From: a virus
IMG/VR virus record: IMGVR_UViG_3300000228_000003
Coordinates: 91,992 to 118,709 of that record
Length of the DNA stretch: 26,718 bases
Strand: one strand, 5' to 3'
Below, piece by piece: positions 2,723 to 26,297 of this stretch. Both the position numbers and the translations under genes were made by a program. The stretch's first letter is position 1. Each line of letters begins with the position of its first letter. Below the pieces are notes generated by a model that saw nothing but the letters and a program-made list of their open reading frames with translations, ran no database searches and had not been told where the DNA came from.

Positions 2723-2755
2723 TAAGAGTACATAGGGCGACCCTATGTACTCTTA
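2723..2755. terminator. Perfect hairpin between convergent genes (possible bidirectional terminator)
   Basis: Arms 2723-2737 and 2741-2755 pair over 15 bp without mismatch around a 3-base CGA loop. The GGG/CCC pairs sit next to the loop. A T-rich run (2757-2769) follows on the + side at short distance. The hairpin lies between a + strand gene ending at 2710 and a minus-strand gene ending at 2767, so it may stop transcription from both sides. Confidence 0.75.
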
Positions 2756-3120: not shown

Positions 3121-3124
3121 CCTT
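3121..3124 (-). promoter_or_regulatory. Shine-Dalgarno deciding the start of the minus-strand gene
   Basis: On the minus strand this reads AAGG, nine bases before the ATG at 3111. It is the reason for preferring the 114-aa form over the GTG-started 134-aa form, whose start would lie inside the first codons of the divergent RNAP gene. Confidence 0.45.
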
Positions 3125-3164
3125 ATATTATTAATTAGTAGCACATACTGACTAAGGAGAGTTA

Positions 3165-5282
3165 ATGTCACAAAATGATGAATACCAAATACTTAAAGAC
3201 TACGGTGTACCAGAACGCATAGTTGGCATCTCAGCTATAAATCCTTGGTTAAGACATATGTCATCACCAAGAGCTAACATGGCAGCTACGCAGCTAGCGC
3301 AAGCAGTGACACTGTGTAAAGGAGACCCTTGTATCGTACAATCTGGTGTAGAGATAGAATTAGGTAAAGCTATAATAGATATCAGTGTTAAAAATAATAC
3401 TGAGATACTTTATGAAACTACTAAATACGGTGGATTAAGTGGCGTGCCTGCTAGTGAGTTAACATTAATAGTTAAGGATAAGATTACTAATAAAATAGAT
3501 ATACTTACTATACCAAAATATCATAAGTTTCATCCATATTTTGGTTTTGAATATATATTACATCAAAACTTAGACAGGATGTTAACTAGCAGATTTATAC
3601 CGGCAGGTACAGTGTTAGCAACGTCACCACAGGTAGGGCACAATGGTAGTTATAATTATGGTGTTAACTTAAATGTAGCACAAATGTCAATACCGCCAGT
3701 AACAGAAGACGCTAAGCTTATAAGTAAATCTGCTTGCAATAAATTAGCCTTTAAAAAGTATAAGGAGTACAACATAAGTATATGTGCTAAAGATATGCCT
3801 GTAAATATTTATGGTGATGCTGAACTATATAAATTTATTCCGGACATAGGAGAGTGTGTTAGACCAGACGGTGTATTATACGCATCTAGAACGATACAAG
3901 AAAACGATATGTTAATATTGTCTAGTGTTTCTAACAACGACCTACGCGAAGTTGACCACACGTACGATAACATAATATACAGTGATGGTGCCCCGGATGG
4001 CACACACTGGGTATCTAAAGCTAAGGTTATAGATATATCAGTATTAGTGTCTCCTAAACACAAGCAAACTTTATTTAATGGTGTGTATGAAAGTTTAAAT
4101 AAGTACATTACTGGTACTAAAGAATACTCGGCACAAGTAACATCGGCGTATATAGACTTAGAACATAAACATGCAAAATCGCACAATGTTACTAACAGCA
4201 TATTACCTATAGATAACACTGTGTATAGGACGTTAAATACACATATGGCTATAGGCAATGTTGGTAATAAAAAAATAACATATTATGATAAAAAGTTACC
4301 TGTTGACACTATTCTATATCTTAAAATAATCGTAGAGAGTACGGTTATACCAGGCAATGGTGCTAAACTTACTAACCGATCTGGTTCTAAAGGTATGTGC
4401 GTGTGTGTTCCTGACGAGTGGATGCCTGTGGATGAAAATGGTGTTAGAGCAGATATAGTAGAAGATGGTAGTGTTACGTCTAGGATGAATGTATCCGTAA
4501 GTTACGAGCATAAATTTAACGCTTTTTCTAGATGGATTAAAAAAATGTGTAAAGATAAACTAAATGGTGTATCAGAAGTTAAACTATATGACCATCCAGA
4601 ACTTATAGACGAAGTATTTAATATTATACTAGGAGGAGTAAAGTTTTTAGGTAATGACCAGTACGCCGCATATTTAAACACAACGTTAGAGGAGAGATAT
4701 CATATTATATGTAATGATGTATATAATAATGAAGTGTTTTTAAAATATACTATCAATAACCCATTACAAGCAGATGAAATACTTAACTCGTTAATAGGTA
4801 CACCGTATGACCCAGTCAGTACACCTATAACATACGCCATAGGTAATAACACATATAAAACTAAGAAAGCTATTAGAATAGCTCCTATGTATATGACGTT
4901 ATTATCTAAATTACCAGATGAAGCATTAGCCGTATCGTCTGCAAGACTTAATCATTATGGATTACCAGTCGGTGTATCTATGGTTAATAAACATGGTGCT
5001 CCTTATAAGGCAAATCCAACTAAGATTATTTCCACAACAGAAGCTAGGCTATATCCAGCGTACGCGGGGTTAATAGGTGCTACAGAGTTGAAGCAGAGAG
5101 CTAATTGTAATGTATCACATACTATTTTATATTACAACATATTATCAGCCGCTACACCTACTAACATAAAATGTTTAATAGATAGAGTAAAACATCCTTA
5201 TGTACCAGATGCTGCGACTAAATTAGTACAAGAAATTTTAAAAACAGCAGGTATAAAAATTTCTTATAAAAAAGGAGTATAA
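3165..5282 (+). CDS. Phage multisubunit RNA polymerase, beta-type subunit, C-terminal part
   Basis: This 705-aa protein matches the second half of bacterial RpoB, which builds the polymerase active-site cleft. Residues 26-49 (NPWLRH...RANMAATQLAQAV) correspond to the IPFLEHDDANRALMGxNMQRQAV segment of beta, followed by a counterpart of PLVGTGME near 55-63. Around 164-190 the ED pair (E181-D182) fits the conserved NYEDAI segment. Residues 402-410 (LTNRSGSKG) match GRHGNKG, with K409 at the position of a catalytic-centre lysine. Residues 418-442 (EWMPVDENG...DIV...SRMN) match the [26 protein letters not shown] segment. The N-terminal half of beta is absent, as in phiKZ-like phages, where beta and beta' are split over separate genes. 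Start at ATG 3165 after AAGGAGA. It heads an operon with the 73-aa gene and the beta' part. Whether this is the virion-packaged or the non-virion enzyme cannot be read from the sequence. Confidence 0.9.
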   Translation: MSQNDEYQILKDYGVPERIVGISAINPWLRHMSSPRANMAATQLAQAVTLCKGDPCIVQSGVEIELGKAIIDISVKNNTEILYETTKYGGLSGVPASELTLIVKDKITNKIDILTIPKYHKFHPYFGFEYILHQNLDRMLTSRFIPAGTVLATSPQVGHNGSYNYGVNLNVAQMSIPPVTEDAKLISKSACNKLAFKKYKEYNISICAKDMPVNIYGDAELYKFIPDIGECVRPDGVLYASRTIQENDMLILSSVSNNDLREVDHTYDNIIYSDGAPDGTHWVSKAKVIDISVLVSPKHKQTLFNGVYESLNKYITGTKEYSAQVTSAYIDLEHKHAKSHNVTNSILPIDNTVYRTLNTHMAIGNVGNKKITYYDKKLPVDTILYLKIIVESTVIPGNGAKLTNRSGSKGMCVCVPDEWMPVDENGVRADIVEDGSVTSRMNVSVSYEHKFNAFSRWIKKMCKDKLNGVSEVKLYDHPELIDEVFNIILGGVKFLGNDQYAAYLNTTLEERYHIICNDVYNNEVFLKYTINNPLQADEILNSLIGTPYDPVSTPITYAIGNNTYKTKKAIRIAPMYMTLLSKLPDEALAVSSARLNHYGLPVGVSMVNKHGAPYKANPTKIISTTEARLYPAYAGLIGATELKQRANCNVSHTILYYNILSAATPTNIKCLIDRVKHPYVPDAATKLVQEILKTAGIKISYKKGV

Positions 5283-5505: not shown

Positions 5506-7495
5506 GTACACAGGATTAAATAATGCTATTGGTGTGTATATAGAGGAGCTTATGTCTATACCATTACTAGATATGCTAGAAGGGTATCACACAGATAGTA
5601 ATGTCGTGTTTATAGACGGAGTTAGGTATTTAACTAGTAAGGAAATAGTAGTAAATAGATTATTGCTAGAGTCTACAAATATATATAATTTAAAAATACC
5701 TATAAAAGTTAGTTATAGTGTAGATAACCATTATACAAATGGTTACTTTACAAAAGGTACTATGCTTAGTTTGTTTTCAGCTGTGTTTAAAGATATAGTA
5801 ATAACGTATCCTGATATGGAATATGATAATTTCTTTAAAACACTACAAGAGATAAATGGTGATATGTATAGTATTATAGCACATCATTACGGAGAATATG
5901 CTAGTTCTATACAAATAGAAGACTTTTTAGAAATACAAAATAATAAAGAAATTCTAAAAGCTATAGATGTAGTGGAAAAAGAGAATACTTATACAAACGT
6001 GAAAAAAGCGTATAGTGTTGTAGATAGTGTAATGAGACTACCAGAATATAGTCACAACGCATTAGCTACTGGTTATGTGTGCGGTGCTTATAACAAATCA
6101 CAAGTACATAAACTTATTGGTCCAGCTGGTGCTAGGACAGAGTTATCCGGTCGTATGTATACGCACATGATACCTAATAGTATAACACAAGGATTAAAGA
6201 CAACACTAGATATGTATCAAGAGCAGCGTAGTGGTGCTAAAGCTATGCACGTTTCAGGTGCAGCTATAGCTGGTTCAGAATACGGTGGTCGTATAATTGG
6301 GTTAGTAACACAAAGGGTACATAAGCTGATTAGAGGAGACTGCGGTAGTACTGATTATATAGACTGGTATGTACGTCCTGCTGATGATATTAATAACTCA
6401 GACTTAGTAAGTCTTAGTGGTACCAGATACGTACTACCAGACGGAACTCTTGGTACTATTAATATTAAAGATAAGCATCTCGAGGGAATTATTATAAAGA
6501 TAAGAAATCCATTAAAATGTAAATTGCCTAATAAAGCACATTTATGTAGTACGTGCATGGGAGCTTTATCCAATCAAATTTTTGGTCATACCAACGTAGG
6601 ACTATTATCTGCAACCATACCAATCAGTACACTTACTAGTGGTATGCTAAGTACTAAACACGATAGCGGTAATGTGTCTGGTAATGAGTTAAAGTTATGT
6701 AGTAATGGTGAGAAGTTATTTACTATAAAAAGTGGTAATGTAATGTGTTTCATAGCTGGTAAGCTTAAACAGCGTTACACTAAATATACACTAATAGTTA
6801 ACCAACGGTTCATGAGCGGATTTAAAAGTATTAATAGTAGTACTAATACAGATTTACTTAACCCACTACGTGTCTCTAGAGTAGAAAGTGTTATTATAGA
6901 GGTTTTAGATTCAACTACAGGCGTTATTGAAACGTATGACATAAATACGCATAACGCTAGCTTCACACTTGTGTTCATAAGATATATATTAGACACAGGC
7001 TATACATTAGACCAGTTTGATAGATTTCATATAGACTTATCAGGTTGGCACACTACAGCTGGTGTTTTAATTAAACCTAATATGGAGTTTAGTTACACGA
7101 CAATAAGTAAAGCTATGAAGTCTTTACTAGTGTCTTCTAAAACTTCTAAGCATACACCTATAGGTATGTTACAAGCTATATTCGATTTATTAAATAATAC
7201 TAAGATGTCTACTAATATAGCTTGGGTTAGTATAATGGTGTATGCTTTTATAATGGAGAATAAAGAGAACCATCTTTTAGCTAGATTTACAGACGAGGAG
7301 GCTGCTGCTGTCGGTAATATAAGTAAAATATTAACACAGAGTAGTATAGGTGTTAGTTTAGGCTGGGAACGTATAGATTCTGTTGTGTACGGGCATAGTG
7401 TGTATGATGCAAGTAGGGACTTAGAAACATCTCCAATGGATATGTATCTAGACCCATATAACACAGCACGAGAACTTCGACCGCAAGCTTGGTAA
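5498..7495 (+). CDS. Phage multisubunit RNA polymerase, beta'-type subunit, C-terminal part
   Basis: This 665-aa protein carries the second half of bacterial RpoC. Residues 207-219 (IGPAGARTELSGR) match the SGARGS region, and 231-280 match the GLNVLQYF...[26 protein letters not shown] bridge-helix segment. C282 (in DCGS), C341, C350 and C353 reproduce the four cysteines of the second zinc site (C814, C888, C895, C898 in E. coli). Residues 366-390 (NVGLLSATIPIS...STKHDSG) correspond to the trigger loop, with H388 aligning to the catalytic trigger-loop histidine (H936). The NADFDGD magnesium motif belongs to the N-terminal half and is not here, so another gene outside the window must supply it. 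The gene starts inside the end of the 73-aa gene with only a weak ribosome site, implying coupling. Its stop codon lies in the arm of a 13-bp hairpin. Confidence 0.93.
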   Translation: MAEYTGLNNAIGVYIEELMSIPLLDMLEGYHTDSNVVFIDGVRYLTSKEIVVNRLLLESTNIYNLKIPIKVSYSVDNHYTNGYFTKGTMLSLFSAVFKDIVITYPDMEYDNFFKTLQEINGDMYSIIAHHYGEYASSIQIEDFLEIQNNKEILKAIDVVEKENTYTNVKKAYSVVDSVMRLPEYSHNALATGYVCGAYNKSQVHKLIGPAGARTELSGRMYTHMIPNSITQGLKTTLDMYQEQRSGAKAMHVSGAAIAGSEYGGRIIGLVTQRVHKLIRGDCGSTDYIDWYVRPADDINNSDLVSLSGTRYVLPDGTLGTINIKDKHLEGIIIKIRNPLKCKLPNKAHLCSTCMGALSNQIFGHTNVGLLSATIPISTLTSGMLSTKHDSGNVSGNELKLCSNGEKLFTIKSGNVMCFIAGKLKQRYTKYTLIVNQRFMSGFKSINSSTNTDLLNPLRVSRVESVIIEVLDSTTGVIETYDINTHNASFTLVFIRYILDTGYTLDQFDRFHIDLSGWHTTAGVLIKPNMEFSYTTISKAMKSLLVSSKTSKHTPIGMLQAIFDLLNNTKMSTNIAWVSIMVYAFIMENKENHLLARFTDEEAAAVGNISKILTQSSIGVSLGWERIDSVVYGHSVYDASRDLETSPMDMYLDPYNTARELRPQAW

Positions 7496-7521
7496 ATAGT
7501 GGGGGTATCCCACTATTTACC
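7491..7521 (+). terminator. Perfect hairpin overlapping the RNAP beta' stop codon
   Basis: Arms 7491-7503 and 7509-7521 pair over 13 bp around a GGTAT loop. The TAA stop of the beta'-like gene (7493-7495) is inside the left arm. The downstream sequence is A/T-rich but lacks a clean U-tract, so it may act as a terminator or as a 3'-end stabilising hairpin. Confidence 0.65.
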
Positions 7522-7547
7522 ATTTATAAAAATTAAAAGGAAATAGT

Positions 7548-8288
7548 ATGTTTTTTTATAAAATGATTTTATTATTAGTATTATGTGTTAATATAATAGC
7601 AGCCCCTAGTGGATACGTATTAACTTGGAACGATGAGTTTAATGGTAATAGCTTAAATAACACTAAATGGGAACATAGATATCCTGGTAGGCAATATAAA
7701 ATAGGTTACTTTACCAGCGGCGCAATTAGTGTTAGCGGTGGAACTATAAAAATTAAGACATACATAAAAAATGGTAAAGTGTGGACTGGTCAAATAGGTA
7801 CTGAAAATAAATTTCTAACTAAATATGGGTATTATGAGATAAGGTTCAAGTTACCTAAGATTTATGGACCACAATCTGCTTTTTGGTTACAGAGCCCAAC
7901 GTACGGACAAACCATTTCTAATCCTGGTATATCCGGCGTAGAGATTGACATACTAGAATATGTTAAAACAACACCTAATGAAGTGCATTTTACTCTGCAC
8001 TGGGACGGCTATGGCGTAGACCATAAAAAACAGCATTTTGGTTTTATATACCCAAGTATAGCTAATGGTAAATGGCACACAGTGGGTTTTTTATGGGAAA
8101 GCACTGGATATAAATTATATATAGATGGAACACTTAGATACACAACTAGCACGGCTATTTCTAATGTACCACAATACATGATACTAAGTGCGGGTGTAAC
8201 TGGCTGGGGTGGTGATATATTTAAAGAGGCAATACCAGAAGGTGTTTTTGAAGTTGACTATGTAAGAGTATATAAAAAGGGAGAATAA
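7548..8288 (+). CDS. Secreted glycoside hydrolase family 16 enzyme
   Basis: This 246-aa protein is a compact GH16 beta-glucanase-fold enzyme. Family members cleave beta-linked polysaccharides such as laminarin, lichenan, agar, porphyran or carrageenan. The catalytic signature EIDILE is at residues 132-137: E132 is the expected nucleophile, D134 the assisting residue and E137 the acid/base. Other family features are the opening WNDEFNG (27-33), GYYEIRFKLP (94-103), W113 after the edge strand, and the closing EVDYVRVY (235-242). Residues 1-19 form a signal peptide (K5, hydrophobic 6-18, Ala-Ala near the cut site), so the product should leave the cytoplasm through the Sec route. Start at ATG 7548 after AAAAGGA. 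It directly follows the RNAP operon and its last bases contain the ribosome site of the helicase gene. Substrate cannot be decided. A signal peptide is unusual for a phage depolymerase, which would normally be a tail part. Confidence 0.92.
   Translation: MFFYKMILLLVLCVNIIAAPSGYVLTWNDEFNGNSLNNTKWEHRYPGRQYKIGYFTSGAISVSGGTIKIKTYIKNGKVWTGQIGTENKFLTKYGYYEIRFKLPKIYGPQSAFWLQSPTYGQTISNPGISGVEIDILEYVKTTPNEVHFTLHWDGYGVDHKKQHFGFIYPSIANGKWHTVGFLWESTGYKLYIDGTLRYTTSTAISNVPQYMILSAGVTGWGGDIFKEAIPEGVFEVDYVRVYKKGE
8277..8283 (+). promoter_or_regulatory. Ribosome binding site for helicase inside the GH16 gene end
   Basis: AAGGGAG lies within the last codons of the GH16 gene, seven bases before the helicase ATG at 8291. 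Only two bases separate the GH16 stop from that ATG. This supports the chosen helicase start and indicates coupled translation of two functionally unrelated genes. Confidence 0.6.
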
Positions 8289-8290
8289 TT

Positions 8291-9796
8291 ATGATAAATT
8301 TATTAATTTATAACATATATTTTGTTATAAATTATACACCAAATAGTAAAGAAGGATCCATAGTCCTAGATTTTATTAGACACTATAAAACATTTCGAAC
8401 ACAAGCTAGTACTAATAAATCTAAAACTACACACGTAGAAGATAAACAATATTATGTCTTACTAGATAATACTATTTATCTACCTATAACATTGGTTACA
8501 CAGTTTGTAGAGTACTTGAAAGCCTATGGTGTGCAGAAAGAGCAGATTTCAGTAGAGTATAAGAATAGTTATAAAATAACTCATGTTGAGTATACCGTAA
8601 ATCCTGAAATTATACCAAGAGATTATCAAGAAGCATATATCGATATATTAACTAAAAGTACTGATATACCATTTATGCTTATAGACTTACCTACTGGTAA
8701 AGGTAAGTCTCTTATAGCAGCATATACTATCGCTAAGCTAAAATGCAGAGTAGCTATGTTCATTTTACCTATGTATATAGAAAAATGGACAGAAGACTTT
8801 AAAAAGTATTTAGGTTTAGAAAGTTATGATATCTATATCATATCTGGTGCGGAGTCTATCAATAGACTGTATGAAAACATATCTAGTTATAATAATGTCA
8901 AGTTATTTATATTTTCTATAAGAACTAGTTCTTTATATATAGATAATTATGATAAAGAACTAGTTAGTGTAGTTAAACCAGAAGAGATGTTGTCTAGTCT
9001 AGGTGTTGGCATTGCGTTTAACGATGAAACACACCAAGAGTATCACGCTTTATACACCATATTCTCTAGAGTTAACGTGAAGCGTGTAATAGGCTCTACC
9101 GCAACGCTAGACTCACACGATAGAACAACTAAGAATATGTATAACATATTATTTCCTATAACAGCTAGAGTATCTAATCTTGTGATTTTTACTAAATATG
9201 TTAACATAGTAGCTACCTCTTTTAAATTACTTAATGCTAAGAGAATAAGATGTAAGACTATGAATGGATATAGTCATATCATGGTAGAAAAATATATAAT
9301 GCGTAAACGTAGTCTATTAACAGAATATACTAATATGTTATTTTATTATATAGACGAAATTTATATAAATAGGTTAGACAACTATAGTCAAAAACTATTA
9401 ATATATGCTAATACTATAGATTTTTGCACATACTTGACTTCTGTTATAAAAGCTAGATATCCTGAACTGGATGTTAAAAGATATGTTGAAGCAGACAGTT
9501 ATGAAAATATTATGACTGCTAACATAACAGTATCAACTGTTAAGAGTGCTGGTACTGCACTAGATATACCTAATCTTATAGCTGTTATACAAACTGTTAG
9601 TATTAATAGTTTACAAGCTAATTTACAAACAGTAGGAAGACTTAGAGAGATACCTGGTAAAGAAGTTTACTTCTACTATTTATATACACCTGATATACAT
9701 TCACAAAGAGAATATCATAATAAAAGGAGAGAATTACTATCACCTCGTTGTAAAACATTTACTATTAGACAGTATGATAGGACACTAGTGGCGTAA
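8291..9796 (+). CDS. Superfamily 2 DNA/RNA helicase
   Basis: This 501-aa protein shows SF2 helicase motifs in order. An RDYQ element is at 110-113. Walker A is LPTGKGKS at 133-140. The DEAD/H-type Walker B is NDETHQ at 244-249 (DETH). Motif III is GSTAT at 268-272, motif IV is near LIYANT at 370-375, motif V spans about 414-428 (STVKSAGTALDIPN), and motif VI is QTVGRLRE at 446-453. ATP-driven unwinding or branch migration of nucleic acid is expected. The layout resembles phage helicases of the T4 UvsW type, involved in recombination and replication, although I cannot assign it to that subgroup with certainty. The first 100 residues are a non-motif domain. Expression is coupled to the GH16 gene. 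The region after it is an A/T-only spacer that may carry a promoter for the next gene. Confidence 0.92.
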   Translation: MINLLIYNIYFVINYTPNSKEGSIVLDFIRHYKTFRTQASTNKSKTTHVEDKQYYVLLDNTIYLPITLVTQFVEYLKAYGVQKEQISVEYKNSYKITHVEYTVNPEIIPRDYQEAYIDILTKSTDIPFMLIDLPTGKGKSLIAAYTIAKLKCRVAMFILPMYIEKWTEDFKKYLGLESYDIYIISGAESINRLYENISSYNNVKLFIFSIRTSSLYIDNYDKELVSVVKPEEMLSSLGVGIAFNDETHQEYHALYTIFSRVNVKRVIGSTATLDSHDRTTKNMYNILFPITARVSNLVIFTKYVNIVATSFKLLNAKRIRCKTMNGYSHIMVEKYIMRKRSLLTEYTNMLFYYIDEIYINRLDNYSQKLLIYANTIDFCTYLTSVIKARYPELDVKRYVEADSYENIMTANITVSTVKSAGTALDIPNLIAVIQTVSINSLQANLQTVGRLREIPGKEVYFYYLYTPDIHSQREYHNKRRELLSPRCKTFTIRQYDRTLVA

Positions 9797-9879
9797 TATA
9801 CTATTATTTAGATATAATATAATCTTATATTATTTATTAGAATACTAAAGATAGTATTACTATAAAAAAAGGATTTATC
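9797..9879 (+). promoter_or_regulatory. A/T-rich spacer with weak hairpins, possible promoter
   Basis: This 83-base spacer is almost entirely A and T. It holds two weak inverted repeats: 9814-9821 with 9826-9833 (8 bp, all A/T) and 9841-9846 with 9853-9858 (6 bp). It ends in the AAAAAAAGGA ribosome site for the gene at 9880. It breaks the otherwise tight gene packing, so a phage promoter is plausible, but I see no motif I can name. Confidence 0.3.
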
Positions 9880-11017: not shown

Positions 11018-11045
11018 GTAGTAGTAGGAACATTCCTACTACTAC
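11018..11045 (+). terminator. Strong intrinsic terminator
   Basis: Arms 11018-11029 and 11034-11045 form a 12-bp perfect stem with an ACAT loop. A run of eight T (11052-11059) follows after a short spacer. It separates the 368-aa gene from the first giant fibre gene and is the most classical terminator in the window. Confidence 0.85.
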
Positions 11046-11103: not shown

Positions 11104-14100
11104 ATGGCCATGATAGTCTTTGGTACTGCTGACGGCAAAATTAGTTTAAATGGTAAAATATATGACCCACAAAAGCAACAAACGCTAATCGAGGGAGATA
11201 GTCAATTATTTATACAAGAAAATCCACCATTAGTATTTAGTATAGGCGACGTTTGGATTAATCCAGTAACTTTAAAAAGAAGTGAACCAACTGTAGCTAA
11301 CGGTAGAGCCATTTGGGCAGAGCCGTATGTTCTAGAGAAAAAAGGTATTACAGACACTACTTTTAATAGTATATTAACTCCATTTATATCAGGTGTAAAT
11401 TTGGCACTAAGTAGAATACACAGTGCGCTAGGCGGAACTAATAGTGGCAGCGGTAGCGATACCACACCACCAACTATAAATAGTATATCGTCTCTAGATA
11501 CTAATAGTAACTCTAATGGCGTATACAGTGCTGGTGATAGAATAACTATTAACTTTAACGAACCTATAGATGTGTCATTATTAGCTATTACTGATATAAC
11601 ACTTAATAATAACCATAGCTTCGGTGCTGGTGCTACACTCGCACCTGTAAATATCGTAAATGGACATGCTAGCGCTTTTGATATATTACTAGGCACAGGC
11701 GCAACAGTAACTGGTGGTGATAGTATAACTATACCTATAGGTAAAGTTCGTGATATTAGTGGAAATAGTAATACTGATCCTATTGTTTTTCTTTTACCTG
11801 TGTTAGGCGGAACTATCATAGCAGGCGGTAGTGGCGTGAATACACCTAGTATTAATAATATATCTTCTACAGATATAGGAGGTAACTCTAGTGGACATTA
11901 TTCAGCTGGAGATAGAATAGTTATTAATTTTAGCGAACCTATAGATAGCACATTATTAACTATTTCTGGTGTATCCGTTAGCAACGGACATATACTAGGG
12001 ACAGGTGCCACATTAGAGCCAGTTAATCCAACTAATGGCTATGCTACAACATTCTATTTGACTCTAGGTACTGGTACAACAGTAGAACCGAATGATGTAA
12101 TTAGGTTTAATATAGGCACTATTAGAGATGCAGACGGTAATACTAATACTACTGTTGTTGAATATGTTTTACCTACACTAGGCGGTACTAATACTGGACC
12201 TAACGGTAGTACTGATATAGTTAATGTAAACATACCAGAAGAGTTTAAACCTATAGAGTTAAAAGCTATACCGTGCAACGACCCACTACCTAATGGCTTT
12301 TTAGAAACTACTGGTATCGATATAAGTAGAAGTGTATTTAGTGGTATGTTTTCTAAAATAGGCACAACATACGGTGCTGGTGACGGAGTTACAACATTTA
12401 ATTTACCTAATATACTTAGACTTGTGGATTATAAATTTATTATAGGTATAAGACAAGTGGTTACACCACCAGTTGCTGGTACTGTTTTATATCTAGTAGA
12501 TGACGCAGTAGTACCAGATGGTTGGATAATAACAGATGGTAGATGTTTAGTAAAAGAAGCTTATCCGGAACTATATACTATCACTGGGGATATGTATGGT
12601 ACATGCACTAATGATAGTAGCATGTTTAAATTGGCTGACCACACTAGTAATAGCACTGCTACTAAGTTTGCTATAATGGTTAGTAATAATACCATAGTAC
12701 CAACTACCGGTAGTGTGCTTATGCAATTATCTAATGAGGTTGTAGCTAGTGGTAATTTAGAACTAGACGGCGCTACTGTTGATAGAACTACGTATAATGA
12801 CATATTTAAAACTATAGGTATTAAATATGGAGCTGGCGATAACGCTAGTACGTTTAAGTTACCAACAAGCGCTAGAGAAAGTGATTACAAGTATGTTATG
12901 ACTACTACCGATACTACTCCTGATATAGGAGACATTTTTTGGATGGATAGCACTATCACACCGGCTGGGTACGTAAGATGTAACGGGCAATACATTAGTA
13001 AGTCTGCGGCTAACGCATTATTTATAAGAATAGGTAACAGGTTTGGAGAAAGTACAGATGGTTTAAAATTCAAAATGCCAACTATAAACCAGCCTGTTAA
13101 TAACAACAACCTACAATTTATAGAAACTAATATTATGCCGCTCATAGGAGACGATGCTAAAGATGTTAAAGTTGTTGATGTTGACAATGGTAGATTTTTA
13201 GTTAAATACCATAAGCTAGATGGTAGTATATATAAACCATATTTATATATAGGTAAAATACAAGTAGACAACAGTATAGTTTATACACTAAGTAATATCA
13301 CCTCTAGTGATGTATTACCAATAGATGCTGAATTTTTACTACTTAATGATGGTAGAGTGTTAATAATGGGTGGTAAAAACTCAGAAACAAATGTTGCAAA
13401 TTCTAGACTAATAGTTTTATCAATAGATAACGCAGACGCAGTAACGTCTGTAGAGTTACAAGATGTAGCTACTAACGCTTCGTACTATCAAGATAGTTTT
13501 TATACTAAATTTGGCATATCTACATTAATAGATGGTAGAGTAGTATGTTTAGGTGGTTTTTTAGAAAACGATACGGGCGTTAACCATAGTATGATATTTA
13601 CTATTAATGCTTCCAACGTGGCTGGTGTTGCGTCTACAAGTTATCCAACAGCTATCGCAAGCAATACTAAACTAAGAAGACTAGCTGATGACAGACTGTT
13701 GGCTTTAGGTATGGGTGTTATGGACGACAATAATGCTTGGCGTTCTGAATATAGATTTTTAAGTATATCAGGAGACAATATATCATATAGCACAAATGGT
13801 TTATTACCAGCAGACATCTTTGGTAGTGGTGAAATATCGTCTTTAGAGTATGCTCAAACACCAGATGGTAGTATATTAATAGTAGGTGGTTATTATCTAG
13901 ACGATTATCAAAACAATGTGTGCACAGGCATCGTAACTGGTGATAGTATTACCTTTACAGAAAACACTTATAACACGCCTTTTGCTGGTATTAATTATCA
14001 TTTGTTAAATATTCATAATAACAACGTTATATTAGCTGGTGGTCAAATTGTTAATACTAACGATGCGCTTGTTAGTAATAATAAAGTGTACGTTACAGGT

Positions 14101-14184
14101 ACAGCTATAGCTGATAACACTTCTGACTTTGTAATTAGACTAGGGGTTGGTACACCTGGATTATTAAATAAAACCATTTTATAA
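11104..14184 (+). CDS. Giant tail fibre/adhesin: two Ig-like domains, four tail-collar repeats, Kelch-like propeller
   Basis: This 1026-aa protein is a modular receptor-binding candidate. Residues 1-110 are an N-terminal attachment part, followed by a Gly/Ser linker (110-118). Two bacterial Ig-like repeats occupy about 121-232 and 246-357; each carries YSAGDRI-INF-EPID, a GTGAT strand and a closing RD.(S/D)GN. Four phage tail-collar-type repeats follow at about 384-435, 456-510, 535-587 and 606-660, each with a (P/A)xGxxxxxG core, a Y/F-rich middle and a closing TF-L-P. Residues about 680-1005 contain Kelch-like blades such as DGRVLIMGG (749-757), DGRVVCLGG (810-818), DGSILIVGG (921-929) and NNVILAGG (973-980). 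These indicate a beta-propeller, likely the receptor-facing end. It probably sits at the tail tip and binds surface glycans or proteins. ATG 11104 follows AAGGA. The next gene is a paralogue in tandem. Confidence 0.88.
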   Translation: MAMIVFGTADGKISLNGKIYDPQKQQTLIEGDSQLFIQENPPLVFSIGDVWINPVTLKRSEPTVANGRAIWAEPYVLEKKGITDTTFNSILTPFISGVNLALSRIHSALGGTNSGSGSDTTPPTINSISSLDTNSNSNGVYSAGDRITINFNEPIDVSLLAITDITLNNNHSFGAGATLAPVNIVNGHASAFDILLGTGATVTGGDSITIPIGKVRDISGNSNTDPIVFLLPVLGGTIIAGGSGVNTPSINNISSTDIGGNSSGHYSAGDRIVINFSEPIDSTLLTISGVSVSNGHILGTGATLEPVNPTNGYATTFYLTLGTGTTVEPNDVIRFNIGTIRDADGNTNTTVVEYVLPTLGGTNTGPNGSTDIVNVNIPEEFKPIELKAIPCNDPLPNGFLETTGIDISRSVFSGMFSKIGTTYGAGDGVTTFNLPNILRLVDYKFIIGIRQVVTPPVAGTVLYLVDDAVVPDGWIITDGRCLVKEAYPELYTITGDMYGTCTNDSSMFKLADHTSNSTATKFAIMVSNNTIVPTTGSVLMQLSNEVVASGNLELDGATVDRTTYNDIFKTIGIKYGAGDNASTFKLPTSARESDYKYVMTTTDTTPDIGDIFWMDSTITPAGYVRCNGQYISKSAANALFIRIGNRFGESTDGLKFKMPTINQPVNNNNLQFIETNIMPLIGDDAKDVKVVDVDNGRFLVKYHKLDGSIYKPYLYIGKIQVDNSIVYTLSNITSSDVLPIDAEFLLLNDGRVLIMGGKNSETNVANSRLIVLSIDNADAVTSVELQDVATNASYYQDSFYTKFGISTLIDGRVVCLGGFLENDTGVNHSMIFTINASNVAGVASTSYPTAIASNTKLRRLADDRLLALGMGVMDDNNAWRSEYRFLSISGDNISYSTNGLLPADIFGSGEISSLEYAQTPDGSILIVGGYYLDDYQNNVCTGIVTGDSITFTENTYNTPFAGINYHLLNIHNNNVILAGGQIVNTNDALVSNNKVYVTGTAIADNTSDFVIRLGVGTPGLLNKTIL
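13357..13393 (+). repeat. 37-base near-identical repeat, copy 2
   Basis: This is the partner of 10135-10171. It lies in the first Kelch-like blade of the giant fibre gene and encodes VLIMGGKNSETN, where the GG dipeptide belongs to the Kelch pattern. Confidence 0.8.
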
Positions 14185-14198
14185 AAAGGAAATAACGA

Positions 14199-17100
14199 AT
14201 GACTTGGCAAGAACGAATAAATAGAATGTTTGCAACAGCAGTAGATATTAAAACTGCGTTGATAAACAATTTTACTACTAGAATAAGTAATGGTACATTA
14301 AGAGAACATGAATTAATAGATGTACTAGAGGCGGAGATTAAGAAAACTTTACCAGTGACAACGCAACCGCTGGTGGAGGTAACACAAGCGCAAGTAACAG
14401 CTAATCCAGAGCTAGCTCTTAGTCCTAATGTGACTATATTATCAAGTACTAGTAACTTAACTAAAACAGTAAATAATACAATATTAGATTATAACCAGGT
14501 AACTGGTGCTTATGAACAAAGATATCATCCTGAGATAGCTAGTACTATAGTTGCGGCACAAGCATTACAAGGTGTTGTGTCCACTATTAACCAATTTAAT
14601 TATGGTACCATAGGTGGTGGCGGTGGTGGTGCGTCGCTTGACACACTTGCTCCACAAGCTAATGGTATTATGTCAATAGATAATAATAGCGACACTACTA
14701 ATGGATATCAAGCTAATGATGCTATATCTATAAACTTTAACGAACCAATAGCCACTGTGTTAATAACTATTAATGATATATCTATTAATAATAGTCACGT
14801 ACTTGGTACTGGTGCCACATTAGTGGCTAATAATCCTAGTAACGGACACGCGACTAGATTCGATATTACACTTGGAACTTCACCAAGTGTAGCTGCTAAT
14901 GATATATTGTCAGTTGGTATAGGTAAAGCTAGAGATATTGCTAATAATGCTAATGTTGTGCCTATTTCTTATATAGTACCAACTATTGGTACTAGTACAG
15001 GCAACGTCACTGCTCCTGCTGCGGCTAATATGTCTTCTATAGTAATAACAGATACTAATAATGATTCAACAGGTACTTATAATGTTGGGGATTTAATAGC
15101 TATTAGATTCACAGAGTCTATTAGCACTACATTACTAACTATTATAGATGTGTCTTTAAATAATGGACATAATCTTGGTAGTAACGTTACCATGCTTCCT
15201 AATAACGCTGTTAGTGGATATGCTAGTGAATTTGTTATTACGTTAGGTGGTTCACCAACTATCGCCACTGGTGATGTTTTATCTATTGCTATTAACAAAG
15301 CTAGAGGTATGAACAATAATTATAATACAGTTCCTATCAATTTTACAGTACCTGTTATCGGGGGTAATAGTACACCAGCAGTTATTTATTATGCTGAAAT
15401 AGATACAATAGCGCTAGCGGACCCAGTACCAAGTGGCTGGTTATTAGCCGACGGTAGCGCCGTTAGTAGAACTACTTATGCAGAATTATTTGCCGCTATA
15501 GGTACTACGTACGGTGCTGGTGATGGTAGTACAACATTTAATCTTCCTAATATACCTGATACTTCAACTGAAAAGAGCATAGTTAGAGCTACCACTAGTA
15601 CTAATACTACAAATAACACGGCACCTGGTACTACTATTATCATCCCAGCTAATGGTACTATTCCAGCTGGTTATATATTGCTGGATGGTAGTTGGCTTTC
15701 TATAGAAGCTTACCCTGCGTTATATAGTATATATGGTAGTACTTATGGCATAGATACTGTTAATGGATTATTTAAATTACCTAACGTCGATACGCCCACG
15801 GCAATAAAATACACTCCGGTAAGGGAGATTATAACAACTAATGTTTCTATAAGAGCATACTTACCTACTGATACTATTCCAGCAGGTTTTATATTAGCTA
15901 ACGGAGCAACTGTTAGTAGAGTTACTTATAGTAGTATCTTCTCGGCTATAAGCACTGCGTATGGCGTTGGTGATGGTAGTACAACTTTTAAGCTACCAGT
16001 ATTGCCAGATAGTGGTAGCTATAAAATGTATATAGGCATAAGTACGTCGCAGGCAACAGGTAGTGTTTTTTATCTAAGTGATGTTGACGCGATACCGAAT
16101 GGTTACTTAAGAACAACTGGTCAAGAGTTATCTAAAGAAGCATATCCTGCGTTATATAGTGCCATAGGTGGCAAATATGGTACAGCTAGTGATAATACTA
16201 AGTTTAAATTACCTAATCTAAGTAGTGGTACTGGTATACCAAGAATAGCAATTCTAGGGAGTTATAATTCAGCTGTACCTACCAATTTACATATAGTTGA
16301 TCGTGCGATTGGATTTAATCGTAACTTTACAGCAAATCCCGTTACGTTACACACATATAATGACGAGAATGGGCAAATACGTGTAATTAAGTCTATGTTT
16401 GCTAATGGGGAGTGTAGTGGTAGTGAAATTGGACACTATCCAGGTAGTGATGCTACGGATTGTGTAGTACTAAGTAAATTAGATAACTTATATGTAGGTA
16501 ATAGTAATATAAAAAGTTGTGTTATCAGCGAGAATGTACCATTTACGCAGTGTAGTGTTATGTCGGATATCTTTAAACGACAAACATCGCACATGTATTT
16601 ACAACAGGAGGTATACGATAAGTTTATAATTTTTACAGACGTGTCTAATCCGAGTGCGGTTCATGGTCTGGAAAACGATACTACAGACATTTACTTTATG
16701 TGTATGGATGAAGACAATATCCCATTATACGGAAGACTACATAATATTCCGACAGGGCACGTGAAATTCTTTATAATAGAAAATAATACAATGTATGTTT
16801 TTCACGGAGTAGCTAATAATTCCTCTATATACAGTAATACTATGACTGTAGAAGCTATACCTTTATATATAGACGGATATGTGCTTGCTACAGGTACTCC
16901 TTATTCGTGCACTAAAATTGTTCACATGCATGGTGGCACAGCCAGTAATACTACGTATGTATTATCCACGCTTATAAACTTTAAATCTGGACACAGAATG
17001 TTACTTGGAAATAGTGTCGTCTCTGCAGATATAAAGATAATAGATAGTTCTAAAACTGTTGTTATTTCAGAGATAGTACCAGACGACTGGCTTAATAATG

Positions 17101-17246
17101 GCGGATATTCTAATTTAATAATACCTAGTAGCACGGATAATACTTTTATTATTGCGATTGGTGGTTATGATAATAATAATACTAGTAGGGATAAAGTATA
17201 TAAATATCATCCAGGTATTACTTATGACTACGTAATAAAAATATAA
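14199..17246 (+). CDS. Second giant tail fibre/adhesin, paralogue of the upstream gene
   Basis: This 1015-aa protein repeats the upstream architecture. Residues 1-138 are an unrelated helical N-terminus, ending in a six-Gly linker (139-144). Ig-like repeats lie at about 150-262 and 272-385 (INFNEPI, LGTGAT, GKARDI). Four tail-collar-type repeats lie at about 396-451, 477-530, 548-603 and 621-673; the first reads PSGWLLADGS then YGAGDGSTTFNLPN. Residues 680-1015 are beta-rich and only the last part (FIIAIGGYDNNN, near 993-1004) keeps a recognisable Kelch blade, so the propeller here is degenerate or of another type. The different N-terminus suggests a different attachment point, and the diverged tip suggests a different receptor. 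It starts 14 bases after its paralogue's stop, behind AAAAGGA, in the same operon. The pair probably arose by duplication and then diverged at both ends. Confidence 0.86.
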   Translation: MTWQERINRMFATAVDIKTALINNFTTRISNGTLREHELIDVLEAEIKKTLPVTTQPLVEVTQAQVTANPELALSPNVTILSSTSNLTKTVNNTILDYNQVTGAYEQRYHPEIASTIVAAQALQGVVSTINQFNYGTIGGGGGGASLDTLAPQANGIMSIDNNSDTTNGYQANDAISINFNEPIATVLITINDISINNSHVLGTGATLVANNPSNGHATRFDITLGTSPSVAANDILSVGIGKARDIANNANVVPISYIVPTIGTSTGNVTAPAAANMSSIVITDTNNDSTGTYNVGDLIAIRFTESISTTLLTIIDVSLNNGHNLGSNVTMLPNNAVSGYASEFVITLGGSPTIATGDVLSIAINKARGMNNNYNTVPINFTVPVIGGNSTPAVIYYAEIDTIALADPVPSGWLLADGSAVSRTTYAELFAAIGTTYGAGDGSTTFNLPNIPDTSTEKSIVRATTSTNTTNNTAPGTTIIIPANGTIPAGYILLDGSWLSIEAYPALYSIYGSTYGIDTVNGLFKLPNVDTPTAIKYTPVREIITTNVSIRAYLPTDTIPAGFILANGATVSRVTYSSIFSAISTAYGVGDGSTTFKLPVLPDSGSYKMYIGISTSQATGSVFYLSDVDAIPNGYLRTTGQELSKEAYPALYSAIGGKYGTASDNTKFKLPNLSSGTGIPRIAILGSYNSAVPTNLHIVDRAIGFNRNFTANPVTLHTYNDENGQIRVIKSMFANGECSGSEIGHYPGSDATDCVVLSKLDNLYVGNSNIKSCVISENVPFTQCSVMSDIFKRQTSHMYLQQEVYDKFIIFTDVSNPSAVHGLENDTTDIYFMCMDEDNIPLYGRLHNIPTGHVKFFIIENNTMYVFHGVANNSSIYSNTMTVEAIPLYIDGYVLATGTPYSCTKIVHMHGGTASNTTYVLSTLINFKSGHRMLLGNSVVSADIKIIDSSKTVVISEIVPDDWLNNGGYSNLIIPSSTDNTFIIAIGGYDNNNTSRDKVYKYHPGITYDYVIKI

Positions 17247-17788: not shown

Positions 17789-17828
17789 ATATCTTACACT
17801 TAGAGGATATCCTCTAAGTGTAAGATAT
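17789..17828 (+). terminator. 18-bp perfect hairpin at left border of the signalling cassette
   Basis: Arms 17789-17806 and 17811-17828 pair over 18 bp without mismatch around an ATAT loop, then TTTTAAT. It is the longest stem in the window. It should separate the fibre operon from the two-component cassette that follows. Confidence 0.8.
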
Positions 17829-18314: not shown

Positions 18315-18962
18315 ATGGGCTTAAAAGATATGCTGTCGTTTATACGAAGATTCATATTACCAAGTAACATAAAAAAGCAACAAGAAGTAAATTATAGTAA
18401 ATATACTATAATAGAAGAAATACCAGCGTGTATAGATTATGATACGTTTACTAAACCTAATATTAAAGGTAATATAAGAACACCTAAAGTACTTATATTA
18501 GACGATATTAACTACACAGTTATACTTTACCGTAATGATTTATTGGAAATAGCTAAGTTACACAATAGAAACCCACTTATTGATTTTGAGATAGTAGAAA
18601 TTTTCGATGAAAATGCTGGGTTCATAGCGCATAAATATGTTACACTAGATAAAAACATAATAGACTATGCTATATTAGATTTAACATTAGGTGCAATCTA
18701 TAAAATAGCAGATGGTACGTGTATATCGTACGATGGTGTAGATATAGCTATAGAGATACTTAAACTAAACCCAGACGCTAAGATATTATTCGTAACAGCA
18801 CACACGATGGCTATACACTCACCATCATATGCACTATATGGTAATAAATTTAAACGCGCTACTGGTAAAGATATATTGGCACACACTGCCTCTAAAATAG
18901 ATAATAGACATAGAGCAAGTAGTATTTATAAGTTATTATATGGCGGTAACAGTGAAACATAA
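18315..18962 (+). CDS. Response regulator with receiver domain and no output domain
   Basis: This 215-aa protein has a 53-residue Lys-rich lead followed by a receiver domain at about 54-195. The strand PKVLILDD (57-64) supplies the acidic pair D63/D64. YAILDLTLG (118-126) places D122 as the expected phospho-acceptor. ILFVTAHT (157-164) gives the switch Thr at 161. DG-VDIAIEILK (139-150) fits helix 3 after the DG turn. K180 is the best candidate for the conserved lysine, but the usual Lys-Pro pair is missing. Spacings D64-D122 and D122-T161 are longer than in CheY, implying two loop insertions. No DNA-binding or enzymatic output domain follows, so signalling would go through protein contact. 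The last 23 bases overlap the histidine kinase gene, which strongly supports a cognate pair. Confidence 0.82.
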   Translation: MGLKDMLSFIRRFILPSNIKKQQEVNYSKYTIIEEIPACIDYDTFTKPNIKGNIRTPKVLILDDINYTVILYRNDLLEIAKLHNRNPLIDFEIVEIFDENAGFIAHKYVTLDKNIIDYAILDLTLGAIYKIADGTCISYDGVDIAIEILKLNPDAKILFVTAHTMAIHSPSYALYGNKFKRATGKDILAHTASKIDNRHRASSIYKLLYGGNSET

Positions 18963-19944
18963 TATTGTTATTAATTATATATTAGCTATGCTACCTGTAG
19001 TAACAATATATACTATACTAACCGTTATAGGTGTTAACATGTATGTTAATACGCACCCTGCTTCTAATATAAATCTTATTATAGTATTAGCTTTAACTAA
19101 CATTGTATGTTTCGCGGTATGTTTTTCTCTATATACTATATTAGTATTTATAAAGAAGATAATAATTGAGAAGAGTAAGCAACAACAAACTATGGAGATA
19201 CAACTCCAAGCAGAGTTAGTAGAATCAGTTAGGCATGAAATGGGTGCACCAGTTACAGTTATTAAGCTTATGGCACATCTAATTAAAGAAAATAAGAAAT
19301 GCTTAGTTTGTGATAACAAAGAGTATGATGAAGCAGAGACCACTGTCTTAGACTATATAGATAGACTGTCACTAGCTACTGACCAACTAGATGCTATATT
19401 ACAACAAATGTCGTCTAATAAAAGAATAAAGTATAGTAATGGGGATACTTCTATTATGAAAATAATAGAAACAGTAATAACTAATAAAAATAATAGTAAA
19501 TTAACAGCTAGCTACAGTGATGAGTTAAATATTTTAACTACGTTAGCTATTGGTGGTAAACTTAATAATGGTGATGTGTTAAATGTTTTACATAACCTTG
19601 TCACCAACTCTATAGAAGCTGGCAGCACTAAAATACATTTTACAGCTGAGTCCTTAGATGCTAAAAATGTATCTTTAATAATAGCAGACAACGGAGGCGG
19701 TATAAGAAATAGTAAAGGGGATATACTTAGTACTAAGGAAGTATCTAAAATATTTAAACCAGGATTTAGTACTAAAGATATCCATATTAATACTTATAAG
19801 TCATTACGTGGTGTTGGATTATATTTTGTTAAACACACATTAGAACAAGCAGATGGCAGTATATCGTTATTAGAAACATCTCTTAATGGTACTATATTTA
19901 AGATAGTTTTTCCTGTAAAAGCACTAGAACCACACATATCATAG
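18940..19944 (+). CDS. Membrane histidine kinase, intramembrane-sensing layout
   Basis: This 334-aa protein is a complete sensor kinase in miniature. Two transmembrane helices (about 11-32 and 45-71) are joined by only about a dozen residues outside the membrane, and a linker helix (72-95) leads to the H-box VRHEMGAPVTVIK (97-109), with H99 as phospho-acceptor and E100 beside it. The ATP-binding domain has an N-box HNLVTNSIEAG (218-228; N219/N223), G1 DNGGGI (250-255), an F-box-like IFKPGFSTK (271-279) and G2 GVGLYFVK (291-298). All residues needed for autophosphorylation appear present. With almost no sensory loop, input probably comes from the membrane itself or from a partner, such as the cassette's single-pass protein. 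The ATG at 18940 lies inside the regulator gene and lacks a clear ribosome site; GTG 18952 is an alternative start. The stop TAG is inside a 14-bp hairpin. Confidence 0.92.
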   Translation: MAVTVKHNIVINYILAMLPVVTIYTILTVIGVNMYVNTHPASNINLIIVLALTNIVCFAVCFSLYTILVFIKKIIIEKSKQQQTMEIQLQAELVESVRHEMGAPVTVIKLMAHLIKENKKCLVCDNKEYDEAETTVLDYIDRLSLATDQLDAILQQMSSNKRIKYSNGDTSIMKIIETVITNKNNSKLTASYSDELNILTTLAIGGKLNNGDVLNVLHNLVTNSIEAGSTKIHFTAESLDAKNVSLIIADNGGGIRNSKGDILSTKEVSKIFKPGFSTKDIHINTYKSLRGVGLYFVKHTLEQADGSISLLETSLNGTIFKIVFPVKALEPHIS

Positions 19945-19971
19945 ACATAAGGGTATACCCTTATGTCTATG
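19940..19971 (+). terminator. 14-bp perfect hairpin at right border of the signalling cassette
   Basis: Arms 19940-19953 and 19958-19971 pair perfectly around a TATA loop. The kinase stop TAG (19942-19944) lies in the left arm. No U-tract follows, so termination efficiency is uncertain, but together with the 17789-17828 hairpin it brackets the three-gene cassette. Confidence 0.65.
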
Positions 19972-22512: not shown

Positions 22513-23865
22513 ATGACAAAAAAGTATATTAAAAAAATACACGGTATACCAGAACTGCAGATTATAACTAATAAACCTATCTGGAGTGAGTTAAAAGATA
22601 GTGATTTATATACTAATCGTAACTGGTGTGTTGATGGTATCTGGTATCAAAATATAGGTAGAAGTTTATCTACTGAAATATTACCATTTCCTAATACAGA
22701 AAATACATTATTTTGTAAATATCCGTTAAACAATAATGTAATAGATTTAATATCTAATACACCAGCTAATGTAGTGGGTGACTTAAGCTTTACTAAACAT
22801 AACTCTAGTTATGTATTAAATGGTAGCGATTATAGTAATGTTGTTAGCTATTGTACAACCAATCTTGTCTTTATACCTAAAGTAGAGTTAGGTTATAGTA
22901 TAAGTGTTTTTACAGGTTATTCAGAATATGGAGCTGATTACACTGGTAATATATGTACACTGTGTGGTGAACTTAATTCCGAAATAATTAACCAAAGATT
23001 ACAACTTACTAATAAAACATTAGAGTTTTTATATATAGATAGTATTAATAACGTTAATGTTTTAACTTATAATCATAATGGGAGTATATCTGAATTATCA
23101 CATATTTGTGTTACTGTTAGTAAATACGAAGTTAGACTATATATAAATGGTGCTTTAGTTAGTATATGGGAAGTCACAGTACCTATTGTGTTTAAAAGAA
23201 GTAGATTAATATTTGGAAATAATATATCTCCTAAAACTGTCAAAATTAAACAGCTAGAAATTTACCATGGCGAGCTAGCTATATCACAAGTTAGAGAGTT
23301 ATATAACCAAGAGAGTTATTTACCAGTAAAATGCGACGGTTTATTTAATACTGTAACTGGTAAGAACAACCCACCACATTTAGCTTACTTAGAAGATGGT
23401 GATAAGCTTATGTATTTATTAACAGATATACAAGGTAATATTGTTAGTAAAGGTTTAGAAGATAAAATAACTAACACTATGTATAGTACTGGTAATGATA
23501 ACTTAGAAATATTTAGAACAAACAATTTAAATATTATACAAAACTTACCTACTTTAGTTTCTAGTGTACAAGTAGATAAAATTGATACAGATTTATTAAT
23601 AGTAACTACTATAACACATCCAGAGTTACAATCTTTAATCTCTTGCGATTTTAAAGTAATGGCTAACCATCTACTGATAAAAAATATAAGTACTGCTATA
23701 AAAAGTAATAGTGTAGTGTTATCTGTAACACTGGAAAAAGAAAAACTATATAGATTAAAAAATAGTGATGCTGAATTAATTATTACTATTATAGCAGACT
23801 CTCCTATTAACATACCAGACTGCGATGTAACTACATTAAAATATAAAGGTAAAACACATGAATAA
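22513..23865 (+). CDS. Tail protein with LamG/concanavalin A-like lectin domain
   Basis: Residues about 64-268 of this 450-aa protein fit a LamG/ConA-like jelly-roll. They open with CKYPLNNNVIDL (68-79), continue with SYVLNGSDYSNVV (99-111), include HICVTVSKYEVRLYINGALV (197-216), and end with IKQLEIYHGELAISQVRELY (245-264). This sandwich commonly binds glycans. Residues 1-63 appear to be an attachment segment. Residues 270-450 form a second beta-rich part with no family I recognise. The start codon is two bases after the upstream stop with AAGAGG before it, and the end overlaps the muramidase gene by 8 bases. It is probably a fibre or baseplate accessory binding surface polysaccharide. The enzyme signature of GH16 is absent here, so binding rather than cleavage is expected. 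Confidence 0.75.
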   Translation: MTKKYIKKIHGIPELQIITNKPIWSELKDSDLYTNRNWCVDGIWYQNIGRSLSTEILPFPNTENTLFCKYPLNNNVIDLISNTPANVVGDLSFTKHNSSYVLNGSDYSNVVSYCTTNLVFIPKVELGYSISVFTGYSEYGADYTGNICTLCGELNSEIINQRLQLTNKTLEFLYIDSINNVNVLTYNHNGSISELSHICVTVSKYEVRLYINGALVSIWEVTVPIVFKRSRLIFGNNISPKTVKIKQLEIYHGELAISQVRELYNQESYLPVKCDGLFNTVTGKNNPPHLAYLEDGDKLMYLLTDIQGNIVSKGLEDKITNTMYSTGNDNLEIFRTNNLNIIQNLPTLVSSVQVDKIDTDLLIVTTITHPELQSLISCDFKVMANHLLIKNISTAIKSNSVVLSVTLEKEKLYRLKNSDAELIITIIADSPINIPDCDVTTLKYKGKTHE

Positions 23866-24511
23866 CATTGAAGAAATATTAAACCACTTGTATAAAGTGG
23901 AGGGAGGGGTTTTACATAGAAATCCTACTGAGAATGACGTTACGTCACCAAGAGGACTATATAAAACAGAGGATAGTAAATCTAAAATATGGAATTATTA
24001 TAATGAAGTAGCTGCGTCTTTAAATATAAAACCTGTGTCTAAAGAATGGACTGCTAAACATATTAGTGCTATTAATAATAAAGCAGATGCTAATATAGTA
24101 TTAGAACATGAACGAGAGTATTATATATCTTATTTTAAACACTTACCTATCGACATAACTATGTTAAGTCCTGTGCTAGCGGTGCTAATAACATCTCTTT
24201 ATGCTAATAGCCCGCAAGGTTGTGTTATATCTTTACAAGAAGCAATAATATATCTTAATAAAGCTGGCATTATAAATATACCAGCAGATAAATTATCTAA
24301 ACCAGATGGTATAATTGGTAACGACACTAGATACGCGATGCAGTCTATAGTAAACTTAGATAGTAAAGAACTTATGATTTTTAGTTTATTAATCATAGGT
24401 AGAATGCAGGAATATTATATAAATATAGCAGCAAGTAAACCTGATAAATATTTAATATATTTAAATGGTTGGAAAAACAGACTAAAAGAATTAAAAGACA
24501 CTATTTTCTAA
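23858..24511 (+). CDS. GH108-type muramidase (endolysin or virion lysozyme)
   Basis: This 217-aa protein has the pattern of glycoside hydrolase family 108 phage lysozymes, which cut peptidoglycan glycan strands. The N-terminal helix ends in VEGG (14-17) with E15 as expected catalytic acid. The loop TSPRGLYK (29-36) stands where GGxTxxGI usually occurs. The C-terminal part fits the PG_binding_3-like region: SLQEAIIYLNKAG (125-137), DGIIGNDTRYAM (150-161) and the closing YLNGWKNRL (201-209), which corresponds to FLxGWxNRV. No signal peptide is present; the only strongly hydrophobic stretch (104-113) lies within the fold. The gene overlaps the lectin gene by 8 bases and sits among tail genes. 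It could be the endolysin, or a tail-borne lysozyme for entry; no holin is recognisable next to it. Confidence 0.78.
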   Translation: MNNIEEILNHLYKVEGGVLHRNPTENDVTSPRGLYKTEDSKSKIWNYYNEVAASLNIKPVSKEWTAKHISAINNKADANIVLEHEREYYISYFKHLPIDITMLSPVLAVLITSLYANSPQGCVISLQEAIIYLNKAGIINIPADKLSKPDGIIGNDTRYAMQSIVNLDSKELMIFSLLIIGRMQEYYINIAASKPDKYLIYLNGWKNRLKELKDTIF

Positions 24512-26263: not shown

Positions 26264-26297
26264 AGTATAACACTGGGTTTTAACCCAGTGTTATACT
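26264..26297 (+). terminator. 15-bp perfect hairpin
   Basis: Arms 26264-26278 and 26283-26297 pair over 15 bp around a TTTA loop. It follows the 206-aa fibre gene and precedes a new gene at 26335. There is no U-tract afterwards. Confidence 0.65.

Follow-up and report, generated by a model that had tools for sequence, protein, structure and literature searches.

The locus and its phage

The DNA analysed here, which we call the window, is a stretch of 26,718 nucleotides covering bases 91992-118709 of the 118,709-base virus record IMGVR_UViG_3300000228_000003. Profile searches were run with nine window proteins against Pfam and with ten against PHROGs. The gene of interest, which codes for a glycoside hydrolase of family 16 (GH16), lies among the following features:

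3165..5282, + strand: phiKZ-type RNA polymerase beta part (phrog_3295, E=5.4e-130; matches in 292 phage records)
5498..7495, + strand: phiKZ-type RNA polymerase beta-prime part (phrog_3015, E=3.4e-92; matches PHIKZ074)
7490..7522, + strand: perfect 14-bp hairpin that spans the beta-prime stop codon and may be a terminator or 3'-end element (RNA folding energy -22.2 kcal/mol with z -4.54)
7548..8288, + strand: GH16 glycanase gene, 246 aa (PF00722, E=2.6e-15; fold model; tree)
7548..7601, + strand: putative Sec signal peptide, residues 1-18 (heuristic; hydropathy 3.28, the top of 19 window ORFs)
7941..7958, + strand: catalytic motif EIDILE, residues 132-137 (E132, D134 and E137, from alignments)
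8291..9796, + strand: SF2 helicase (phrog_16, PF04851; 28% to PHIKZ075)

The RNA polymerase beta part matched 292 and the beta-prime part 255 of 50,697 phage records, at about 20-30% identity among the matches listed, and the SbcD-like and gp68-like proteins upstream keep the phiKZ gene order. Split multisubunit RNA polymerase genes and this gene order, which together define the phiKZ type, were thus both found, and a megablast of window bases 1-25,000 against the phages collection returned no match. Because of the RNA polymerase and helicase matches, the gene order and the lack of a megablast match, the source is a divergent phiKZ-type phage. A query with phiKZ gp54 (chimallin), run without a positive control, gave no match in the phage record, which is probably a fragment.

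The same order of RNA polymerase and helicase genes is found in PHIKZ073-PHIKZ075 of Pseudomonas phage phiKZ. There the RNA polymerase and helicase ORFs overlap without an insert, whereas in the window the GH16 gene stands between them, and the helicase starts 2 bases past its stop. The preliminary description had placed the gene between RNA polymerase and helicase and away from the fibre cluster, and both statements were borne out: phiKZ-type beta-prime lies upstream, the SF2 helicase downstream, and the collar-domain proteins at 11104-17246.

The latter region holds two consecutive, apparently paralogous proteins of about 1000 aa, the first with four tail collar domain stretches preceded by Ig-like-looking repeats. 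Further along, at 18315-19944, a receiver-like ORF is followed by a histidine-kinase-like gene (HATPase_c E 3e-13, with a hydrophobic N-terminal stretch), a possible phage-encoded two-component system. In locus L003, three tandem similar small ORFs at 11397-13264 share a VIIYDPKGCW-type stretch and look like a recent duplication.

The GH16 domain and its active site

The GH16 ORF starts with ATG and is preceded by AAGG, a Shine-Dalgarno-like motif of the kind seen in 16 of the 19 window genes. Its product matched PF00722 over residues 82-239 with 56.8 bits against a gathering score of 22 (E=2.6e-15), and its top PDB sequence matches were GH16 endo-beta-1,3(4)-glucanases and laminarinase-type chains (best E 4.3e-15). 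The AlphaFold model, built with 31 sequences, reached a pLDDT of 83.5 and a pTM of 0.84 and was superposed on GH16 structures with a highest Z of 25.1 (227 residues, rmsd 2.9). In our alignments E132, D134 and E137 were invariant, and the ExDxxE motif is intact. The complete active-site motif claimed at the outset is therefore present, as EIDILE, and profile match, PDB matches and fold model agree with it; in CAZy terms the protein has the GH16 profile match, a beta-jelly-roll fold in the predicted model and the ExDxxE motif.

The domain fills the ORF, and there is no fused tail domain. The reading frame is intact, the gene has a GC content of 0.344 (window: 0.328), and its codon score falls inside the range of the neighbouring genes. 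The gene is real and probably functional. Since GC and codon score resemble the phage, its composition fits the phage and its arrival would not be recent.

The putative signal peptide

A Sec-type N-terminus had also been claimed, and by heuristics the hydropathy and the -3/-1 positions would fit. Residues 1-19 read MFFYKMILLLVLCVNIIAA, in which K5 is the sole lysine and residues 7-17 form the hydrophobic core. The site after A18 is one that we take to be acceptable by the -3/-1 cleavage rule, and C13 presumably does not lie within a lipobox. The 11-residue N-terminal hydropathy of 3.28 was the highest among the 19 window ORFs, the runner-up being the histidine kinase with 2.41. From these features we infer Sec export of the GH16 protein.

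In a Gram-negative host Sec export reaches the periplasm first, and the window contains a separate endolysin-like gene at 23858-24511. Both observations would suit a periplasmic lysis helper, or a superinfection-exclusion factor, that acts on envelope or periplasmic glucans. We consider such a role quite improbable: GH16 enzymes are not known as peptidoglycan hydrolases, and the endolysin-like gene lies about 15 kb from the GH16 gene.

Hairpins, possible promoters and a proposed transcription unit

Perfect hairpins, their loops short and their stems 12-18 bp long, occur at ORF 3' ends in the window (2723-2755, 7490-7522, 11018-11045, 17789-17828, 19940-19971 and 26264-26297) and in L003 (685-718, 3939-3974, 6818-6849, 13904-13933 and 18114-18143). 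When every hairpin whose stem reaches 11 bp or more was counted in the two sequences, 11 of 12 lay at ORF 3' ends, as judged by reading the ORF ends; eight Markov-shuffled windows gave one such hairpin in all. The ORF-end hairpins are plausibly terminators or 3'-end elements, and perhaps they make up a regular punctuation system, the terminators of the phage. If the hairpin at 7490-7522 acts as a terminator, GH16 becomes the first gene after it, and GH16 and helicase would form a transcription unit led by GH16.

Sigma-70-type promoters were discarded as a guide, with 53 matches found against 46.1 expected, which is near chance. An AT-rich 18-base motif, TTATATTATTAATTAGTA, was present with 0-2 mismatches at 3123-3140 and 9825-9842 of the window and at 4845-4862 and 18184-18201 of L003. 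Four genes, among them that of the RNA polymerase beta part, have it 40-60 bases before their start, and it is a possible early promoter; taken by themselves, its match counts do not exceed chance. This RNA polymerase-upstream motif was sought upstream of GH16 and not found there.

The beta-prime/helicase junction as an insertion site

The junction was compared in 26 loci, namely 7 isolate phages and 19 IMG/VR loci that a search with the RNA polymerase beta part had brought up; 25 of them could be evaluated, as L134 ends too early. In 21 of the 25, no more than 100 bases separated the beta-prime stop from the upstream limit of the helicase frame. After near-duplicate IMG/VR loci had been merged, RNA polymerase and helicase were adjacent in 11 of 14, plus 6 of the 7 isolates. 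When the distance was estimated anew from tblastn coordinates, the excess was at most 208 bases in 15 of 19 records, these being the records in the listed rows of both searches, with the phiKZ, Goslar, Caitlin and RisingSun rows taken from differing accession versions. In the junction sequence available, none of the 26 loci showed GH16. Because beta-prime and helicase are adjacent in 21 of 25 loci, the GH16 gene is an insertion at this junction. Other inserts at the junction were as follows:

L127 12095-13492: HNH-type ORF (weak match, E 7.1e-4)
L132 12328-13134: GIY-YIG ORF (E 1.2e-9)
L128 12156-12455: small ORF (no Pfam match)
L070 5923-6735 (FLC8 gp219): insert with no Pfam match

Four loci with other inserts, together with the GH16 gene, therefore indicate that the junction receives inserts. 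The large RNA polymerase-helicase distance in KpSz_1 was rejected as an inserted gene and read instead as an intein-like insert inside the helicase ORF. That an endonuclease carried GH16 into the junction is a guess.

The substrate question

A WPA..WPx pattern around the active site is largely conserved in GH16_3, the laminarinase subfamily, according to excerpted text of a published subfamily account (PMC6827312). Before the active site this pattern was found in 0 of 28 rows of the window's clade against 32 of 41 other rows, and it is absent from the window protein, whereas H[WY]xGY or HWDG was found in 21 of the 28 and 0 of the 41. These counts use the 69 rows of the tree described below, and the H[WY]xGY/HWDG signature was picked after the closest matches had been viewed. 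The same excerpts give the licheninase subfamily GH16_21 an ExDxE motif, one residue shorter (PMC6827312); the window protein has ExDxxE and so falls outside it.

Laminarinases, agarases and carrageenases all scored Z 23-25 against the GH16 model, and since they lie within about two Z units of one another the fold cannot tell the substrate. A profile made from 12 clade members found the same general beta-1,3-glucanases in the PDB, and no solved structure from the window's clade stood out in that search. All NCBIfam matches of the protein were far below their cut-offs. The assignment as a laminarinase is not supported, as the protein is outside the WPA..WPx group both in the tree and by the missing motif, and the name should not be used. 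The suggestion that the enzyme acts on laminarin or algal polysaccharide likewise finds no support, the protein standing outside the laminarinase-type group in the trees.

Cellular relatives and origin

The best match among the cellular genomes searched was in G836 (52% identity over residues 19-243), which belongs to the same phylum as a Kiritimatiellae locus and so is a genome of Verrucomicrobiota type. Matches at E<=1e-20 were found in 62 of 387 genomes in the phylum of G305 (Kiritimatiellae locus; Verrucomicrobiota-type), 9 of 395 in that of G001 (Prolixibacteraceae locus; Bacteroidota) and 4 of 398 in that of G306 (Rhodobiaceae locus; Pseudomonadota). The sampling covered these three phyla, and the phylum names are a reading of locus titles. 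A Bacteroidota donor, the first reading, was given up when wider genome sampling shifted the donor towards Verrucomicrobiota. Within the order of G836 a relative at E<=1e-30 occurred in 1 of 137 genomes, so the close relative is patchy.

Phylogeny had been proposed as a check for bacterial donors. In the 69-row tree, which omits duplicates, short rows and L019, L020, L025, L041, L042 and L052, the window GH16 pairs with the G836 protein with support of 98/97. A 53-row tree, which omits duplicates and short rows, was also made. In a 38-row tree that includes the viral L098 and is made up of chosen window-clade rows, a small number of outgroups and 7 loci out of the 14 from the second IMG/VR GH16 scan, the pair weakens to 94/77 and the deeper branching is not settled. 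By these trees the window GH16 is placed in a Verrucomicrobiota-rich clade.

The G836 protein (L078/L096) shares the active-site region and an exported-looking N-terminus with the window protein. Unlike the latter, it is encoded by a cellular gene, with prepilin-like, GH20 and sodium-symporter genes close by, and it begins with a lipobox-like stretch. Close cellular relatives of the window GH16 adjoin GH20, GH29, GH39 and GH115 genes, and the gene was probably taken long ago from polysaccharide-degrading bacteria. The phage RNA polymerase gave weak matches in 9 of 337 genomes of the phylum of G836 and no phage-type gene; these matches were dropped as a host link, as all lie in frames of 1261-1415 aa that read as cellular RNAP genes.

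GH16 genes in other phages

Two IMG/VR scans, which depend on short peptide patterns and do not amount to a census, yielded 13 and 14 GH16 loci. By ORF reading, L011, L014 and L100 are short phage GH16s with lipobox- or signal-like N-termini; L012, L022, L023, L098, L104 and L105 have GH16 inside larger proteins, several amid structural-looking genes; and L101-L103, L107 and L108 form a group with a different hydrophobic N-terminus. To account for the 9 virus rows of the 69-row tree, 5 or more changes are required on branches with good support; GH16 therefore entered phages repeatedly.

The RNA polymerase beta part was found in 0 of 8 GH16 phage records and in 2 of 2 controls; an earlier set of 8 GH16 records, run without a control, had none either, and L011 belongs to both sets. 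Among the records tested, phiKZ-type RNA polymerase and GH16 co-occur only in the window's record. Single-protein scans of viral contigs, one with GH16 and one with beta-prime, yielded no confirmed relative. The only GH16 match in the phages collection, MT838766 (L002, MT838766.1, 'Bacteriophage sp.'), was set aside: its ORFs resemble bacterial secreted glycosidase genes, and the entry is possibly misassigned bacterial DNA.

The nearest viral GH16 found is that of L098, a 53.6-kb IMG/VR contig, with 42-45% identity and in the same clade. In that contig GH16 forms the C-terminal portion of a protein of 479 aa whose start does not resemble a signal, whereas the window GH16 stands alone; no phiKZ-type RNA polymerase was found in the L098 record. 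The preliminary description held that depolymerases are normally built into tails. Fused phage GH16s do exist, but so do short exported- or lipoprotein-like ones, and phage GH16 genes are in print, so the rule stands in part. A virion-associated enzyme, structural or particle-bound and aiding adsorption, with a hydrophobic N-terminus that is no signal, would follow the example of L098, L104, L105 and L023, in which GH16 is joined to other domains, in some cases close to structural-looking genes, and L098 brings such a fusion into the window's own clade. For the window protein this is unlikely. In a tail depolymerase the enzyme domain would be expected to share a protein or a gene cluster with tail structural modules; here a lone GH16 domain with a signal-like N-terminus lies beside RNA polymerase and helicase and not beside the collar-domain proteins at 11104-17246.

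Published phage GH16s comprise 17 genes called laminarinase auxiliary metabolic genes (AMGs) in viruses of kelp, seawater and sediment (excerpts of PMC11126160) and laminarinase AMGs in 3 of 13 Bacteroidetes viruses (excerpts of PMC11019789). As described in these excerpts they share PF00722, viral flanks and a presumed cellular origin with the window gene, which is set apart by its phiKZ-type phage and its place outside the laminarinase-type group; the comparison is one of descriptions. The excerpted text of PMC6827312 mentions one viral GH16 that has been characterised, that of a Chlorella virus, and in PMC11652154 GH16 appears solely in a reference title. In the open-licence literature, represented mostly by titles and the openings of abstracts, we found no account of a phiKZ-type phage with an exported GH16.

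The view taken in those excerpts (PMC11126160, PMC11019789) would make the window protein a metabolic enzyme, exported to free oligosaccharides from environmental polysaccharide and so feed the infected cell. Its cellular origin, the viral flanks and the glycosidase genes that adjoin its close cellular relatives all fit; yet of the window proteins run (9 against Pfam, 10 against PHROGs) none was recognised as serving sugar uptake or catabolism. We regard this role as possible, on the doubtful side.

Discussion

The reading that we favour, and to which we give an even chance, is that of a free, non-virion, Sec-exported GH16 endo-glycanase, old cargo at the junction, which trims polysaccharide around the infected cell. 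Its grounds are the domain, motif, fold model, location, insertion and clade; export, timing, activity, substrate and benefit are its conditional parts. A phiKZ-type phage would have acquired the gene, not recently, from a polysaccharide degrader of Verrucomicrobiota or Bacteroidota type, as cargo at the beta-prime/helicase junction, the site of homing-endonuclease-type genes in some related phages. The protein would be made together with the helicase unit and exported through the host Sec machinery with the loss of about 18 residues. In the GH16 family a retaining mechanism with the two motif glutamates is established, and the enzyme would cleave a beta-linked polysaccharide in this way via E132 and E137. 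The likeliest benefit would be that extracellular polysaccharide or matrix near the infected cell is trimmed and progeny spread; as a biological role, matrix trimming thus presumably ranks first and feeding of the cell second.

A bolder version goes further. From its own transcription unit beside the RNA polymerase, a phiKZ-type phage would make an exported non-virion polysaccharidase well before lysis, so that the matrix of the living host is remodelled, a pre-lysis clearing of the field; the enzyme would belong to an uncharacterised Verrucomicrobiota-rich clade and have entered via a homing-endonuclease hotspot, and the phage may infect Verrucomicrobiota. As a whole we think this rather improbable.

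Phage GH16 genes are already known, and the window gene is an unusual example by its place and its clade. It puts a GH16 with a putative export signal as cargo inside the otherwise conserved RNA polymerase-helicase block of phiKZ-type phages, and it makes plain that inserts can settle at this junction. It further draws attention to a clade of GH16 enzymes that is common in the Verrucomicrobiota sample. If the enzyme is active, it could be used to test whether phages alter extracellular polysaccharide during infection, beyond adsorption.
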